NCBI GenBank assembly: GCA_030432755.1
Contig: JAUILZ010000014.1
Span: forward strand, 1 to 64,000
DNA length: 64,000 nt
DNA from: Gammaproteobacteria bacterium
GTDB taxonomy: Bacteria; Pseudomonadota; Gammaproteobacteria; Arenicellales; Poriferihabitantaceae
Direction of reading: 5' to 3'
Part shown: piece after piece, positions 35,483-57,857 of the stretch
How positions within the stretch are numbered: position 1 is the stretch's first letter
Layout: the number at the start of each line of letters is the position of its first letter
Notes under the pieces: model-generated
The model's database searches: none
Told to the model about the DNA's origin: nothing
What the model saw: only the letters and a program-made list of their open reading frames with translations
Position numbers and translations under genes: made by a program

Positions 35483-37830
35483 TGCGAAGGCCGTTTCTTC
35501 TCGCCCTGCTGCTGGCCTTGTTCCTGTCGCCTGCCGCCCACGCACAGATTTCCGGCCTGTCTGCCAGCGGCTTCAGTACAGAGGTTACGCGCCAGCTCCT
35601 GGACGCAATCGACTTCCAGTCCTCCATAGCGAATTTCCGCGGCCAGGACTGGCTCGACGTCGCCATCGCACAGGTGGAAGATCAACGCGCCGAGATAAGC
35701 CATTGCGTGACTGCGCGTGAGCGGGAAGTCGCGTCCATCACCCAGAACCTGGGCCAGGACTTCATCGACCAGCTCGCCGCCAAGGAGCAGAAATCTCCCG
35801 AGGAGCAGGCGGTCAGCGTGCAGATCGAGCGACTGAAAGCCTCCCTGGCGGAATGCAAACTTCTGCTCGAGCGCGCGAGCCAGCTACAGGCCCGGCTCAC
35901 CCGGCTCGAGGCGGAATACAAGCGCGAACAACTCAACCGGCGCGATAACTCGGTGGTCCATAACCTGACCCATGGTCTGCCGGAGCTCGCCGCCTACCAG
36001 AAGGGCCGGCTGGAACAGTTCTTCGGCCTGCTGACGCGCGCCAGCGGCATGCATCACGTACGCGACATGGCCATCCTGCTGGTAGCCGGAATTCTCATCG
36101 GCTTCCTGGTCAGACGTCGCGCGCGCATGCCGGATCTGTCACCGGAGCAGCCACTCTCCCTCCAGACCTACCTGGGCTTCGGCTACCTGGTACAGAAAAG
36201 AGCGCCGCTTCTATTGCCCATCGTGTTGCTCCTGGGTTACCTGGCTATTGCCGAGGGCATGGCATTCCTGTTATCGCCGCCAGGACGCATCCTGATGTTG
36301 TTGCTCGGCTACCTGCTCACCCTGATCCTGGTGCGCATCGTGGTACGCCGGGCCAGGATGTACGCGCACGCGGAGCTGGGTTCGGAGATACCGGCGCGCG
36401 GCCTGTATGTGAGACTGGTCGTCATCGTCACGTTGCTGTTCATCTGGATCCAGAAGCTGATGATCCTCGGGCCGCTGCAGGATCAGGGGGATGCGCAGTC
36501 GCTGATGCGCAACCTGGTGGCTTCGGCCACCATCCTGTCGCTGCTGGAATTCGCCCTGTTCCTCAACCGGTTTCCACGGCTGCCGCGGGTCGCCAATCTC
36601 ATTCGCGTGGCGAGCGCCATCCTGCTGGCCGTCAGCCTGCTGCTGGAGCTCGCCGGATTCCGCTCCATGTCGCGTTTCCTCTGGGGCGGCCTCGTGATGA
36701 CGGCCTGCCTGCTGGCGGCGTACTACCTGCTGGAGAGAATATTGCGGGATTTCTACGATGGCCTCGACAACGGCAAGAAATCCTGGCAACTGCGCTTCCG
36801 TAATTTCTTCTCGGTGGAGGAAGATGAGCCGGTACCCGGGCTTCTCTGGCTGCGCCTGCTGTCCGTGGCGGCGATCTGGATCCTGCTCGCGTTGGCATTG
36901 CTGAAGGCCTGGGGCGCGCCGGATTCCACCCTGACCTCGCTGATTTCCCTCGCGCGCAACGGCTTCCGTTTCGGCGACACGCAGATCGTCCCGTCCGATG
37001 TGCTGGTTGGCATCCTGGTGTTCGCGTTGCTGCTGATGCTGGTTCGCTGGTTCAAGGACTCCCTGGATCGCAAGTACCTGGTGCGCTCGCGCATGGACAT
37101 CGGCGCGCGCGAGGCGCTGGTCACCATCACCGGTTATGTCGGCTTCGTGATCGCCGTCATCGTCGGCCTTTCCATCGCCGGGGTGAGCTTCGACAATCTC
37201 GCCATCGTCGCGGGCGCGCTGTCGCTGGGCATCGGTTTCGGCCTGCAGAACATCGTCAACAACTTCGTCTCGGGCATCATCCTGCTGTTCGAGCGCCCGA
37301 TCCGTACGGGCGACTGGATCGTCACCGGCAGCACCGAGGGATTCGTGAAGAAGATCAGCGTGCGCTCCACCGAGGTACAGACCTTCGACCGCTCCGATGT
37401 CATCGTGCCCAATTCAGAGCTGATCTCCACCCAGGTCACCAACTGGACCCTGCGCGACAAGCACGGGCGGGTGATCGTCCGCGTGGGGGTGGCCTACGGC
37501 AGTGACACCGAACTGGTGAAGAAACTCCTCGAGGAAGCCGCCGCGGAGGTGCCGGACATCATCAAGAACCGCCCGCTGTTGCCCACCAAGATCATCTTCC
37601 ACAGCTTCGGTGACAGCGCCCTCATGTTCGAGCTGCGCGCCTACATCTATGACATCTGGCGGGTGCTCGACGTGCGCAGCAACCTGCACTTCATCATCGA
37701 TCGCAAGTTCCGCGAGAACGGCATCGAGATCGCCTTCCCGCAGATGGACATCCACGTGCGCTCCGGCCTGCACCCGCCGGCGGAAACCGGATCCAGCGCG
37801 AAAACCGATCCCGGAGACAAGTCAGGCTAG
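35482..37830 (+). CDS. Large MscS-family mechanosensitive channel
   Basis: The 782-residue inner-membrane protein has a signal peptide (PFLLALLLALFLSPAAHA) and a periplasmic coiled coil (about 60-165). Roughly ten membrane helices follow, then the MscS pore and beta-domain signature GIGFGLQNIVNNFVSGIILL with FERPIRTGDWI. It opens under membrane tension to release osmolytes. ATG 35482 follows GGGGAAG and overlaps the upstream stop codon. Its stop codon TAG shares a CTAG with the stop codon of the convergent gene. Confidence 0.93.
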   Translation: MRRPFLLALLLALFLSPAAHAQISGLSASGFSTEVTRQLLDAIDFQSSIANFRGQDWLDVAIAQVEDQRAEISHCVTAREREVASITQNLGQDFIDQLAAKEQKSPEEQAVSVQIERLKASLAECKLLLERASQLQARLTRLEAEYKREQLNRRDNSVVHNLTHGLPELAAYQKGRLEQFFGLLTRASGMHHVRDMAILLVAGILIGFLVRRRARMPDLSPEQPLSLQTYLGFGYLVQKRAPLLLPIVLLLGYLAIAEGMAFLLSPPGRILMLLLGYLLTLILVRIVVRRARMYAHAELGSEIPARGLYVRLVVIVTLLFIWIQKLMILGPLQDQGDAQSLMRNLVASATILSLLEFALFLNRFPRLPRVANLIRVASAILLAVSLLLELAGFRSMSRFLWGGLVMTACLLAAYYLLERILRDFYDGLDNGKKSWQLRFRNFFSVEEDEPVPGLLWLRLLSVAAIWILLALALLKAWGAPDSTLTSLISLARNGFRFGDTQIVPSDVLVGILVFALLLMLVRWFKDSLDRKYLVRSRMDIGAREALVTITGYVGFVIAVIVGLSIAGVSFDNLAIVAGALSLGIGFGLQNIVNNFVSGIILLFERPIRTGDWIVTGSTEGFVKKISVRSTEVQTFDRSDVIVPNSELISTQVTNWTLRDKHGRVIVRVGVAYGSDTELVKKLLEEAAAEVPDIIKNRPLLPTKIIFHSFGDSALMFELRAYIYDIWRVLDVRSNLHFIIDRKFRENGIEIAFPQMDIHVRSGLHPPAETGSSAKTDPGDKSG

Positions 37831-50521: not shown

Positions 50522-53185
50522 ATGGAACTGGTCTTCCTCACCATCCTCATCCTGCTGATGGTCGTGGCGCTCAGCTCGGGATTTCCCGTGGCCTTCGCCC
50601 TGCCCGGATCCGCCATCGCCACCATCGCCCTGGCCGCCGCCAGCGGCTACCTGTTCGCCGACAATCCCTCGGCCTACTTCGCCCAGGATGGTCCCACCCA
50701 GTGGCTCACCGCGGGGATCACGAACTTCCGAAGTCTCTACTGGGAGGTGGAGCGCGACACACTGATCGCGATCCCCCTGTTCGTGTTCATGGGAATCATG
50801 CTCGAGCGTTCGCGCATTGCCGAGGACCTGCTGGTCTCCATGGCGCAACTGTTCGGACCGATCCCGGGCGGCCTCGGTATCTCGGTGGTCTTCGTCGGTG
50901 CGCTGCTCGCGGCCACCACCGGCATCCTCGGCGCCACCGTGATCGCCATGGGCCTGATCTCTCTCCCGGCGATGCTGCGCAACAATTACTCGAGACCCCT
51001 CGCCACGGGTACCATCTGCGCGTCGGGCACCCTGGGGCAGATCATCCCGCCGTCGATCGTCCTCATCATCCTCGCGGACCAGCTCGCCAATGCCGCCGAC
51101 CAGGCGAGCACCCTGCGAAAGGCGGAGTTCAAGGAACTCACCGGCGAGTTCTCCATGCCCTCGGAGCTGGACATCACTTCCGCCAGCGCCGGCGACATGT
51201 TCATGGGTGCGCTGATTCCGGGGATGATCCTGGTCGGCCTGTACATGCTCTACATCCTCGCGGTGGCCATCCTCAAGCCCGGTACCGCGCCGCCGGTGCC
51301 CTACGAGGGCAAGTACGACCGCAAGTTCGCGATCTCGGTGACGCTGTCTCTTGTGCCGCCGCTCGCGCTGATCTTCGCCGTCCTCGGCTCCATCATTCTC
51401 GGCATCGCCACGGTCAACCAGGCCGGCGCCATCGGCGCGGTGGGCGCCATCGTCATGGGCGGCTACCGGCTGACCGAGGGCAAGCGCAACCAGTACACGC
51501 CGACCATGATGATCGTAGCCTCGATCGTGGTGATCCTGGTGCTACTGCAGTTCTTCGACCTCAACATCAAGAACATCACCACGCGCGCCGACCTCATCGC
51601 CATCCTCGTGGCGGTCGCCGCAGTGCTCGTGTTCCTCGTGGCGCTGGTATGGAGCACCTGGCGCACGTGGCGCATCAACAATACCCTGGTCAGCGTCATG
51701 GTGGATTCCGCCAAAACCACCTCCATGGTATTCATCATCCTCATCGGCGCCGCGATGCTGACCTCCGCATTCCGCGCCTTCGGCGGCGAGGAACTGGTGA
51801 AGCATTTCCTCACCGGCCTGCCCGGCGGCTTCTGGACCCAGTTCCTGGTGGTTATGCTGGTGATCTTCCTGCTGGGCTTCTTCCTCGACTTCATCGAGAT
51901 CGCGGTGGTGGTGGTGCCCATCGTCGCGCCCATCCTGCTTTCCGATCCCGGCGCGAACATCACCGCGGTCTGGCTTGGCGTGATGATCGGGCTCAACATC
52001 CAGACCTCGTTTCTGACGCCGCCCTTCGGCTTCGCGCTGTTCTACCTTCGTGGGGTGGCGCCGCCCACGGTGAAGACCACCCATATCTACAAGGGCGCGG
52101 TGGCATTTATCGGGCTCCAGTTGCTCGGCCTCGCCATCGCCGGTTACTTCCCGAGCCTGGTGAACTACATGCCGAGTCGAACCTATCTGACCGCGGAAAC
52201 CGCGCCACCGCCGGTGAACCCCAGGCTGCAGCAATGTATCGAGGAAGACCTCCTGCCCTATTACGCGGATAATCGTGACGACCTGCTGGCGGCCATCGAC
52301 AGGGTACGCAAACTCGACCTTGCCATACTCCCCGAGGAACACCGCGAATCGCTGCTGGGTGGCCTCGACGCCGCCGCCGCGACGTTCGACAACGTGGCGG
52401 AAGTGGAACAGACCAGCGCCACCCTGGCAGCGTTCGCGGAAGATTACCGGTCCTTGCACCAGTCCGTACGTCGTACACAGGCTCAACTGCGCCGCCTCGA
52501 GGGAGAACTGGAGGCGCAGCGAAGGGCCGCCGATCGCCTCAGCCGTCTCGAGGAAGTACCGGAGGACCGGCTCGCCGAAGTCAACGCGCAGATCGATGCC
52601 CTGGAGGACGAGATGGCCGCGCTCAATGCGAGCATCCCGGCCGAGTGGGAAGCGCAGCACGCCGAGTACAAGCAACTCGCCACCGCGGACAAGATCACCC
52701 GTGGCAAGTATCGTCGCGGCACCGACGAGGCCTATGAACCGGTGAAGAACCTGCGCGCCCTGCTCGTCAGTGTCGATGCCCTCAAAGGAGCGGAAGCCGC
52801 GGTGGATGATGTCGCGGAAATCATCGCCGAGCCGGACGCCGAGCTGGCGATGACGAAAATCGAGGAGAAAGAGAGCGTCCTGTCCGACATCGAGGGCGCC
52901 GGTGCGATCAAGACCGCGCTCTCCCGCGCGCGACGCGCGCTGAAAGGCGACGCCCCGGATCGCGCCGAGGCCATGGCCCAGCAACAGGAAGCCGTGCGCC
53001 TCTTCGCTGAAGAGGTGCGCTGGCGTGAAGCTGCCGCGGAATCCCTGCTGGCGCCGCTCAATGCCTACAACAACGCAATTCGCGACAGTATCGGGCTGCG
53101 TTCGCAAAGCCGCCTGCCGCAGCATCGCGCCAAGGCGGTGGCATCCTGCCTCTCCCATCACCGGGACATCTCGCTGAGCTTCTGA
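50522..53185 (+). CDS. TRAP transporter large permease (DctM) with C-terminal coiled-coil extension
   Basis: Residues 1 to about 555 form a DctM permease with GLGISVVFVGALLAATTGIL, GTLGQIIPPSIVLII, FLGFFLDFIEIAVVVVP-type helices and LNIQTSFLTPPFGFALF. The remaining 330 residues are hydrophilic and helical, with a long coiled coil (about 630-720; RRTQAQLRRLEGELEAQRRA) and many acidic residues. Standard DctM proteins are 425-450 residues, though TakP-associated ones reach about 500-600. The tail has no domain that I can name. Its stop codon precedes a GC hairpin at 53187. Confidence 0.9.
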   Translation: MELVFLTILILLMVVALSSGFPVAFALPGSAIATIALAAASGYLFADNPSAYFAQDGPTQWLTAGITNFRSLYWEVERDTLIAIPLFVFMGIMLERSRIAEDLLVSMAQLFGPIPGGLGISVVFVGALLAATTGILGATVIAMGLISLPAMLRNNYSRPLATGTICASGTLGQIIPPSIVLIILADQLANAADQASTLRKAEFKELTGEFSMPSELDITSASAGDMFMGALIPGMILVGLYMLYILAVAILKPGTAPPVPYEGKYDRKFAISVTLSLVPPLALIFAVLGSIILGIATVNQAGAIGAVGAIVMGGYRLTEGKRNQYTPTMMIVASIVVILVLLQFFDLNIKNITTRADLIAILVAVAAVLVFLVALVWSTWRTWRINNTLVSVMVDSAKTTSMVFIILIGAAMLTSAFRAFGGEELVKHFLTGLPGGFWTQFLVVMLVIFLLGFFLDFIEIAVVVVPIVAPILLSDPGANITAVWLGVMIGLNIQTSFLTPPFGFALFYLRGVAPPTVKTTHIYKGAVAFIGLQLLGLAIAGYFPSLVNYMPSRTYLTAETAPPPVNPRLQQCIEEDLLPYYADNRDDLLAAIDRVRKLDLAILPEEHRESLLGGLDAAAATFDNVAEVEQTSATLAAFAEDYRSLHQSVRRTQAQLRRLEGELEAQRRAADRLSRLEEVPEDRLAEVNAQIDALEDEMAALNASIPAEWEAQHAEYKQLATADKITRGKYRRGTDEAYEPVKNLRALLVSVDALKGAEAAVDDVAEIIAEPDAELAMTKIEEKESVLSDIEGAGAIKTALSRARRALKGDAPDRAEAMAQQQEAVRLFAEEVRWREAAAESLLAPLNAYNNAIRDSIGLRSQSRLPQHRAKAVASCLSHHRDISLSF

Positions 53186-53207: not shown

Positions 53208-53343
53208 GTTGGGTCCGGCGGTAGCTCCTGGCAGCCGCGCTGGCGATCGACACGCTGGTGATGGCCCAAATCCGGACCACTTCCCGCGCCGTTCGCGGGA
53301 AATTCTCCTGCTCGACAAGCGGTAATTTTTTTGCGACAGGCGG
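53208..53343. other. Intergenic region between TRAP operon and small-RNA locus
   Basis: About 135 bp with no gene. It includes an AT-rich tract (GGTAATTTTTTTGCG, near 53322-53336), which lies just upstream of the promoter at 53344 and could act as an UP-element. Nothing else was recognised. Confidence 0.35.
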
Positions 53344-53371
53344 TTGACAGCCCCCGCCCAATGGTTATAAT
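53344..53371 (+). promoter_or_regulatory. Consensus sigma-70 promoter driving the small-RNA locus
   Basis: TTGACA (53344-53349) and TATAAT (53366-53371) match both sigma-70 consensus hexamers exactly, with a 16-bp spacer. Transcription is expected to start at about A53378, 7 bp beyond the -10. No protein start codon with a ribosome-binding site follows before the strong terminator ending at 53452. Confidence 0.9.
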
Positions 53372-53377
53372 TAACTC

Positions 53378-53452
53378 ACGCTCCGCCGTACCTCCTTCAC
53401 CTCCGATTTATGCGGCGGATCATTGAAAAACCCAGGGACTGGGTTTTTTTTT
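53378..53452 (+). ncRNA. Candidate small RNA with anti-Shine-Dalgarno loop (about 75 nt)
   Basis: The predicted transcript runs from about 53378 to the T-run ending at 53452. It has two structural elements. Hairpin 1 pairs TCCGCCG (53382-53388) with CGGCGGA (53413-53419), and can be extended by a G-U and an A-U pair. It presents a 20-nt loop at 53391-53410 containing CCUCCUUCACCUCC, which is complementary to Shine-Dalgarno sequences (AAGGAGG). Hairpin 2 (53426-53448) is an intrinsic terminator. Small RNAs with CCUCC-type loops in other bacteria block ribosome binding on target mRNAs. Alternatively the unit may be a leader that attenuates the downstream cyclase gene. Confidence 0.7.
53426..53452 (+). 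terminator. Strong intrinsic terminator of the small-RNA locus
   Basis: AAAAACCCAG-GGA-CTGGGTTTTT forms a perfect 10-bp stem with a 3-nt loop, followed by further T residues (9 in a row in total, 53444-53452). It is the best terminator in the window and ends the unit 72 bp before the cyclase TTG codon. Confidence 0.93.
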
Positions 53453-55774: not shown

Positions 55775-56362
55775 TTATCTCTTCAGATACTTCCAGCCGG
55801 CGGTCAGCAGCGCAACGCCGAGAACGATCTTCAACAGGTCGCCGTAGAGGAAAGGCGCCATGCCGAGTTCCACCAGCGGCTTGTCCCAGCCGATCACGCT
55901 GCCGAGCCAGGCGAGACCGAGGGCGTAGATGGCTGCGTTGCCGATGACCATGGCGATGGCCACGAGCAGCGGGCTCCGGTCCCAGCCGCGTTCCGCGAGC
56001 CAGCCGCAGATCAGCGCGGCGACGACGAAGCCGATGAGATAGCCGCCCGTGGTGCCGAGCATGTAGGCCATGCCGATGCCTTTTTCCGGGGTGCCGGCGA
56101 ACACCGGCAGGCCGAACGCGCCCTGGGCGAGGTAGAACAGCACCGTGGCCGCCCCGAGGCGCCAGCCAAAGGCGAAACCGATCAGCATCACTGCCAGGGT
56201 CTGCATCGTCATCGGCACCGGGTAGAACGGCACCTGGATCCTGGCGGACAGGGTCAGGAGCAGTGATCCGGCCACCACCAGGAGGATGTTCTGCAGGACG
56301 CTACGCTCCTGCAGGAGAGTGTCCAGGAGGGTACGTTGGGCGACGGCGGTGGTTGATTGCAT
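55775..56362 (-). CDS. bioY: BioY biotin transporter S-component
   Basis: The 195-residue membrane protein has six helices with the BioY markers ARIQVPFYPVPMTMQT, GFAFGWRLGAATVLFYLAQG, GLPVFAG and TGGYLIGFVVAALICG. It binds biotin for uptake through an ECF-type system or alone. ATG 56362 was taken; an ATG at 56395 would overlap lnt. It lies 22 bp downstream of lnt on the same strand, an unusual neighbour for this gene. No BirA box was found upstream. Confidence 0.92.
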   Translation of the reverse strand: MQSTTAVAQRTLLDTLLQERSVLQNILLVVAGSLLLTLSARIQVPFYPVPMTMQTLAVMLIGFAFGWRLGAATVLFYLAQGAFGLPVFAGTPEKGIGMAYMLGTTGGYLIGFVVAALICGWLAERGWDRSPLLVAIAMVIGNAAIYALGLAWLGSVIGWDKPLVELGMAPFLYGDLLKIVLGVALLTAGWKYLKR

Positions 56363-56384
56363 CGGTAATTCAAGGGTGTTCTGT

Positions 56385-57857
56385 TCAGCTCGCATTGTAG
56401 CCCGCTCCGCGGCGGCCGAACAATAATCCCGCAAGCAACATCGCCACGGCGAGCAGCACCGCCAACCAGTCACCCCAACGGATAAACGGCGTCTCTCCTG
56501 TGCGAGGCTGGATCTCGCCACGCACCACCGCCTTCTCGAACTGCGGCGCAATCGTGGTGATGTTGCCACGCCAGTCGATCAGCGACGAAAGCCCGTTGTT
56601 GGAGGAACGCACCATCGGCCGCTCCGACTCGCGCGCGCGAAAGCGCGCCATCTGCAGGCGTTGATGCGGCGCGAGGGAATCACCGAACCACATGTCCTCG
56701 CTCACGTTGAGGAGGAATCCCGCCGCCGCCACCTGGCTTCGCCATTCATGGGGAAATGCGTCTTCGAAGCAGATCGACGCCGCGGCGCGATGTCCCGCCA
56801 TGGGCAGGGGCTCCTGTGGATCCCGCCAGGGGGTGAAATCCGCCATGGGCATCGTGAGATGACGCAGGATCGGATCGAGCAGTCGCTGGAACGGGAAGTA
56901 CTCTCCGAAAGGCACCAGGTGCTGCTTGTTGTAGAGATGCAGCTCGTCGCTCACCACCGCGATGGTGTTGTAGTAATCCTCGCCCGGCGGCGGTCGATGC
57001 AGGGCGCCGAAGGCGAAGTCCGCGGGATGCACCGCGAGCGCTTCCCAGAATACCCGCGGCAGGTTTTCCAGGTAGCCGGGAATCGCGCTCTCGGGCCATA
57101 CCACCAGGTCACGATCGGTCTGTTCCCTGCTCCGTTCCATGTATTCGCTGATGATGGACGGGCGAATGTTCGCGTTCCACTTGTCACGCAGGGGCACGTT
57201 GTTCTGGATCACCGCCACCCGTATCGGGGCGCCCGTCGGCGTGGACCACTGGACACGATCAACCCCAAGCCCGGCGATCCACAACACGGCGGGCAACGAC
57301 AGCCAGGCCAGCGCCCTGCCGCGCTGGCCCAGGCCGAGCGCCAGTGCCCCCGCCGATGCCAGCGTCAGCAGGCCGACCAGGTAAACCCCGCCCAGCGGCG
57401 CGAATCCGGAGAACGGGGTCTCCATGAGGGAGTAACCGGTACTGAGCCACGGCATGCCGCCGAACAACCAGCCCCGGACCCACTCGAGCAGCAACCAGCA
57501 GGCCGGAACCAGCGCGACCAGTCGCGCGGCCGGATGGAAGCTTCGAAAACGATCCTGCAACAACCCGGTCAGCGCGGGAAACAGCGCCAGGATCAGCACC
57601 AGGCCGAACACGCAGAGGCCGGCGAGCACCGGCGGCATGCCGCCGAACCCATGTATGCTGATGTACACCCAGGACACGCCGACGCCGAACTGGCCGAATC
57701 CGAAGCAGAGACCGAGCAGGAACCCGCGCCGCCCGCCGGGCTGCATCCACAGGTGAAACAGGGTGCCGAGGCACAGTGGCAACAGCCACCACCATGCCAG
57801 CGGCGCGAAGGCGGCCACGGAAAGGACGCCCGCGAAAAGGGCCAGCAGGTAGATCAA
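56385..57857 (-). CDS. lnt: Apolipoprotein N-acyltransferase
   Basis: The 490-residue inner-membrane enzyme adds the third acyl chain to lipoproteins. About seven membrane helices precede the nitrilase-type periplasmic domain. The catalytic triad is visible as Glu in WPESAIPG, Lys in NKQHLVPFGEYF and Cys in SICFEDAFP. The TTG start at 57857 overlaps the ybeY stop by 4 bp. The usual ybeX (corC) gene between ybeY and lnt is missing. Confidence 0.95.
   Translation of the reverse strand: MIYLLALFAGVLSVAAFAPLAWWWLLPLCLGTLFHLWMQPGGRRGFLLGLCFGFGQFGVGVSWVYISIHGFGGMPPVLAGLCVFGLVLILALFPALTGLLQDRFRSFHPAARLVALVPACWLLLEWVRGWLFGGMPWLSTGYSLMETPFSGFAPLGGVYLVGLLTLASAGALALGLGQRGRALAWLSLPAVLWIAGLGVDRVQWSTPTGAPIRVAVIQNNVPLRDKWNANIRPSIISEYMERSREQTDRDLVVWPESAIPGYLENLPRVFWEALAVHPADFAFGALHRPPPGEDYYNTIAVVSDELHLYNKQHLVPFGEYFPFQRLLDPILRHLTMPMADFTPWRDPQEPLPMAGHRAAASICFEDAFPHEWRSQVAAAGFLLNVSEDMWFGDSLAPHQRLQMARFRARESERPMVRSSNNGLSSLIDWRGNITTIAPQFEKAVVRGEIQPRTGETPFIRWGDWLAVLLAVAMLLAGLLFGRRGAGYNAS

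Follow-up and report, generated by a model that had tools for sequence, protein, structure and literature searches.

Introduction

Small RNAs of the anti-Shine-Dalgarno (anti-SD) type have been tested in several bacteria, and these include NfeR1/ar14 (PMC10746234), NmsRA and NmsRB (PMC5362039), S17 (PMC11722255) and the ncS27 group (PMC5688073). The ar14/NfeR1 RNAs (RF02344, cuckoo RNAs) have an ultraconserved anti-SD loop carried on freely varying stems, and their silencing through pairing at start regions has been tested (PMC10746234, PMC3927594). NmsRA and NmsRB, sibling small RNAs of Neisseria, each contain two anti-SD motifs and repress via SD pairing (PMC5362039). In Xanthomonas, sX13 pairs with G-rich motifs near starts through C-rich loops set on stable stems (PMC3771888). 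The toxic small RNAs of the Betaproteobacteria (RF02278; ncS03, ncS05, ncS27, ncS62 and bdhR1), to which Bordetella S17S is related, are double-hairpin RNAs of about 60-70 nt with CU-rich unpaired stretches complementary to the ribosome-binding site, and RNAs of this type occur in several copies per genome (PMC5688073, PMC11722255). Anti-hemB (RF02837; also Burkholderia RNA 7 or ncS04), described in Burkholderia, is composed of a stem, a CCUCC loop, a linker, a C/G terminator and a U tail.

Here we report a small RNA gene found in 64,000 nt of gammaproteobacterial DNA (the whole analysed stretch, hereafter the window). It resembles anti-hemB over the full length of that model, but the model has an extra 20-nt linker and other letters in stem and loop. 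It shares its double-hairpin form with the RF02278 RNAs, although in the RF02278 model CUCCUCC lies at an unpaired 5' end, whereas here a closed 20-nt loop is found, and S17S is cut out of a longer RNA by RNase E. NmsRA and NmsRB differ in having three stem-loops, with the motifs in separate regions and without an A/U-rich stretch before the terminator, while sX13 is 115 nt long, has three stems and 4C motifs and is Hfq-independent. The ar14/NfeR1 RNAs belong to the alphaproteobacteria and have three hairpins with CCUCCUCCC; in place of the several CCUCCUCCC-loop hairpins that mark cuckoo RNAs, the RNA described here has one hairpin with a single loop, CCUCCUUCACCUCCGAUUUA, that contains two different copies of the 16S rRNA tail.

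No Rfam 15 family matches the small RNA at its gathering threshold, either in the window or in relatives. The best match was anti-hemB, with 19.4 bits in the window and 19.8 and 23.5 bits in relatives from a second family of the order (f8), against a gathering score of 49.5; RF02278 reached 13.9 bits (cut-off 50) and ar14 12.5 bits (cut-off 58.8). A literature search with the loop sequence found nothing related. An earlier note on this DNA had not recognised the RNA as a member of any named family, which agrees with these results, and we consider it very likely that the RNA represents a new family outside Rfam 15. The Rfam Phe_leader model also matched the same hairpins at three f8 homologues (L028, L031 and L032; 27.5-38.8 bits against a cut-off of 55). 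These scores fall under the cut-off, no phenylalanine gene was seen near the f8 homologues, and the match is probably a coincidence of shape.

Results and Discussion

Organization of the locus

The features of the locus are as follows, in positions of the window.

53314..53344, + strand: 21-bp direct repeat GACAAGCGGT-N11-GACAGGCGGT, candidate regulator site (from conservation)
53344-53349, + strand: -35 hexamer TTGACA (sequence)
53344..53371, + strand: sigma-70 type promoter, TTGACA-16-TATAAT (geometry common to all five orthologues)
53366-53371, + strand: -10 hexamer TATAAT (sequence)
53378, + strand: predicted +1
53378..53452, + strand: small RNA gene, predicted transcript of about 75 nt (block conserved from +1 to the T run; covariance model 95.8 bits)
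53382..53390, + strand: hairpin 1, 5' arm UCCGCCGUA (two-sided changes in 7 of 9 pairs among 11 sequences)
53391..53410, + strand: 20-nt loop CCUCCUUCACCUCCGAUUUA with two anti-SD motifs (conservation and match to the 16S 3' end)
53391-53397, + strand: loop motif CCUCCUU
53397-53404, + strand: loop motif UCACCUCC
53411..53419, + strand: hairpin 1, 3' arm UGCGGCGGA (covariation)
53420..53427, + strand: A/U-rich linker UCAUUGAA joining the two hairpins (conservation); may contact Hfq
53426..53452, + strand: intrinsic terminator AAAAACCCAG/CUGGGUUUUU with GGA loop and nine T (fold; covarying stem)
about 53426-53435/53439-53448, + strand: terminator stem arms
53444-53452, + strand: terminator T run

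The exact TTGACA and TATAAT hexamers, 16 bp apart, that the earlier note had described were confirmed base for base and at exact coordinates, as were the predicted 75-nt transcript, the 10-bp terminator stem (11 bp when a G-U pair is counted) and the nine T residues. The promoter scores 12 of 12 against the consensus and is the sole promoter-like site within 3 kb, a search in which 0.5 weaker sites would be expected by chance. The predicted transcript folds with a minimum free energy of -27.5 kcal/mol (z = -3.75 relative to dinucleotide shuffles), a value equalled by none of 200 shuffles. The GC-rich hairpin with its 20-nt loop is present as claimed and has 9 bp, one of them G-U. The two loop motifs overlap by one U, and each occurs without change in the 3' end of 16S rRNA, ...GGATCACCTCCTTA, as compared with the 16S rRNA of E. 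coli; such identity had been claimed for CCUCCUU, and the second motif noted at that time, CACCUCC, is also identical to the tail when read as UCACCUCC. The small RNA is single-copy in the window and in the genome from which the window comes.

The second copy of the 21-bp direct repeat extends into the -35 box. The consensus of the repeat pair, GA[C/T]AA[G/A]CGGT-N11-GAC[A/G][A/G][A/G]CGGT, running into TTGAC, was found in four of the five orthologues; the 21-bp register is identical in three congeners (G001, G002 and G003), and the fourth (G004) retains the promoter-proximal half only. No such repeat pair occurs elsewhere in the window's own genome at the same stringency. Direct half-sites placed two helical turns apart at a -35 box suggest a bound regulator, which may be an activator, for instance of the response regulator type.

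Conservation and covariation

A DNA search of 60 relatives identified orthologues in all four congeners, with 90-93% identity. When the congeners are aligned, conservation sets in at the predicted +1 and is lost beyond the T run. Averaged over pairs of orthologues, identity is 98% in the loop, 94% in the terminator and 87-89% in the arms of hairpin 1, falling to 59% in the 8 bases that precede the stem and 24-37% in the flanking zones. The unpaired loop is therefore the most constrained part of the molecule, as would be expected of a base-pairing seed. All five orthologues retain TTGAC[A/T]-16-[T/C]ATAAT while the letters of the spacer diverge, and changes in the spacer under a fixed promoter geometry are the pattern expected of a promoter in use. 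The linker is kept among the orthologues as UCAUU[U/G], with variants in the two other families in which the RNA was found. The small RNA gene probably does not encode a protein, since the transcript's only ATG (53410-53412) reads ATA in three of the four congeners, in agreement with the earlier claim that there is no translatable start with a ribosome-binding site.

A second copy of the RNA is present in the congener G002 (contig 82, about 37029-37103, minus strand). Its loop is identical letter for letter to that of the orthologues, and its stem is rewritten yet fully paired (UCUGUUGUA/UACAACAGA versus UCCGCCGUA/UACGGCGGA). This copy adjoins a sulfatase-like gene, and the promoter is not kept there. 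A covariance model (R1) then recovered a diverged relative belonging to a different family within the order, and later, improved models recovered further members, giving all four genomes of the second family (f8) and one genome of a third (f5). The f8 loop, ACCCCCAUCCCGUCACCUCCGACUA, retains UCACCUCCGA and contains one exact tail copy, UCACCUCC, with CCCCCAUCCC standing where the other copy was. The f5 loop is UCCUCCUUCCCGUACGACAAACCCCUCUU, carried on the stem GUUCCGUCCA/UGGACGGAAC.

In the resulting 11-sequence alignment, which was fitted with the model and hence leans towards the structure, 97.9% of 187 stem cells pair, compared with 81.6% in shuffled alignments and at most 58% in slid ones. 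Two-sided changes occur at ten pairs, seven of the nine in hairpin 1 and three of the eight modelled in the terminator, and no shuffle reached the covariation score of the alignment. A model-free MAFFT alignment of the first six sequences already had six two-sided pairs. One minus-strand model match (L019, 21.3 bits), which is probably noise at the near-palindromic terminator, was not included in the alignment. A chance assembly of promoter-like, hairpin-like and terminator-like sequence with no function, which we would regard as vanishingly improbable, is refuted by this covariation and by conservation across three families. The hairpin conservation that the earlier note had proposed to look for in relatives was thus found in all four congeners, with a covarying stem and the loop kept. 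Together with the conserved promoter and ends and the varying gene contexts described below, these comparisons indicate that 53378-53452 is almost certainly a real RNA gene, predicted to be transcribed independently as that note had supposed.

Searches farther afield returned little. The exact 21-base loop pattern had no matches in GTDB genomes beyond the congeners, and a 17-base loop pattern had two matches in viral contigs, both without hairpin or terminator. A covariance search that took in 369 genomes from the whole class recovered the window alone, an absence that is weak since 12 candidates were scored per genome.

Gene neighbourhood

In this genus the small RNA gene lies downstream of a TRAP transporter operon, whose DctP, DctQ and DctM genes are present in the window, where dctM ends at 53185 and a CHASE2-adenylate cyclase gene begins at about 53525. 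The DctM-type TRAP permease (50522-53182) is 887 aa long with a long, coiled-coil-like C-terminal extension, and in each of the four congeners, too, the ORF has exactly this length. Farther along the window, on the minus strand, the listed BioY and apolipoprotein N-acyltransferase ORFs (55775-56569 and 56385-57857) overlap, and BioY probably starts farther downstream than listed.

The position of the small RNA between dctM and the cyclase gene would allow it to be read as a 5' leader or attenuator of the latter, or as a piece of the 3'-UTR of the TRAP operon. The cyclase gene is also downstream in G001, but in G003 a reverse-strand gene intervenes before a cyclase-like gene, and in G002 and G004 no cyclase gene was found in the 4 kb or so that follow the small RNA. 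In f8 the small RNA is downstream of genes with mpl-like and dsbA-like protein starts and in f5 it is near ABC-type permease-like genes, all assignments outside the window being based on similarity of protein starts. The second copy in G002, too, has unrelated neighbours. Because the neighbours vary in this way, the small RNA is neither a cyclase leader nor bound to any one neighbour, and the ordinary cyclase leader, which the earlier note had named as the finding that would overturn its proposal, is itself refuted. The small RNA also has its own conserved promoter and strong terminator, and we consider a leader or 3'-UTR origin very unlikely.

Proposed function

In keeping with the design of the anti-SD loop RNAs, the SD-complementary loop is more conserved than the stem and changes in the stem are compensated, and at the sequence level the gene has its own promoter and an intrinsic terminator with a U tail. 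A constrained SD-complementary loop, a compensating stem and a U-rich terminator constitute the design of the tested anti-SD small RNAs, from which we infer silencing in trans. Anti-SD action, and the broad repression that the earlier note had mentioned for CCUCC-loop RNAs of other bacteria, are plausible here from the sequence and from these analogues. As far as this analysis goes, the RNA is probably a trans-acting anti-SD regulator of a set of mRNAs. It would be transcribed independently as a double hairpin, whose covarying stem would present a single-stranded loop that copies the 16S anti-SD tail twice (CCUCCUU and UCACCUCC). The loop would then pair in trans with the SD sequences of its target mRNAs and block ribosome binding, probably with the assistance of Hfq on the U tail, and the promoter may be under the control of a factor that recognises the 21-bp direct repeat. 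Of 30 relatives, 26 have an hfq gene, among them all four congeners. In the window's own assembly (G000, 83% complete) none was found, which is likely due to an assembly gap.

Matches to the 10-mer complement of the loop (TCGGAGGTGA), and to the 14-mer complement (GGAGGTGAAGGAGG) with one mismatch in five genomes, fell almost all in coding frames, for example over Glu-Val-Lys-Glu codons, and none was at a conserved start site. Duplex energies at start regions in the window, taken from rough gene calls, were not above those of random 55-mers. At the start of the neighbouring dctM the duplex energy in the five genomes was no better than random and was not conserved. Short SD duplexes of 7-8 nt would be expected at many genes.

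Since no conserved, dedicated target was found by the complement searches, and since each motif copies the 16S tail exactly, the loop could instead be a decoy that titrates a ribosomal or maturation factor recognising the tail or mRNA leaders generally, or SD sequences at large, and so dampens translation globally; overexpressed ncS27, of the RF02278 family, is known to attenuate growth (PMC5688073). However, the loop letters outside the tail copies (GAUUUA) are conserved as well, and the second family has just one exact copy, UCACCUCC, with CCCCCAUCCC replacing the other, and this agrees better with pairing to mRNAs, with chosen extensions, than with mimicry of the tail. We therefore regard a decoy as unlikely, and find it similarly doubtful that the twice-carried tail mimic serves as a global throttle on translation, controlled by a regulator on the 21-bp repeat, rather than as a regulon-specific small RNA. 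The RNA might also be a sponge that neutralises an RNA rich in GGAGG or AGGA loops, such as a Csr/Rsm-type RNA or another small RNA, since CU-rich loops should be able to pair with GGA-rich loops as they do with SD sequences. No such partner was found, the 14-nt complements in the five genomes being in coding frames, and a sponge seems quite improbable. The reading that we favour remains repression of a set of mRNAs through their SD sequences.

Conclusions

Anti-SD small RNAs are already known elsewhere; the present family is new, and its functional likeness to them extends as far as sequence can tell. For a gammaproteobacterial order that is seen here via metagenome assemblies, it contributes a well-supported RNA family that had not been annotated, and it provides a further case in which an anti-SD loop is nearly fixed while the stem beneath it is rewritten. 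Similar designs in the alpha- and betaproteobacteria miss each other's models, which raises the question of whether such RNAs have originated repeatedly or descend from a shared ancestor from which they have diverged too far.
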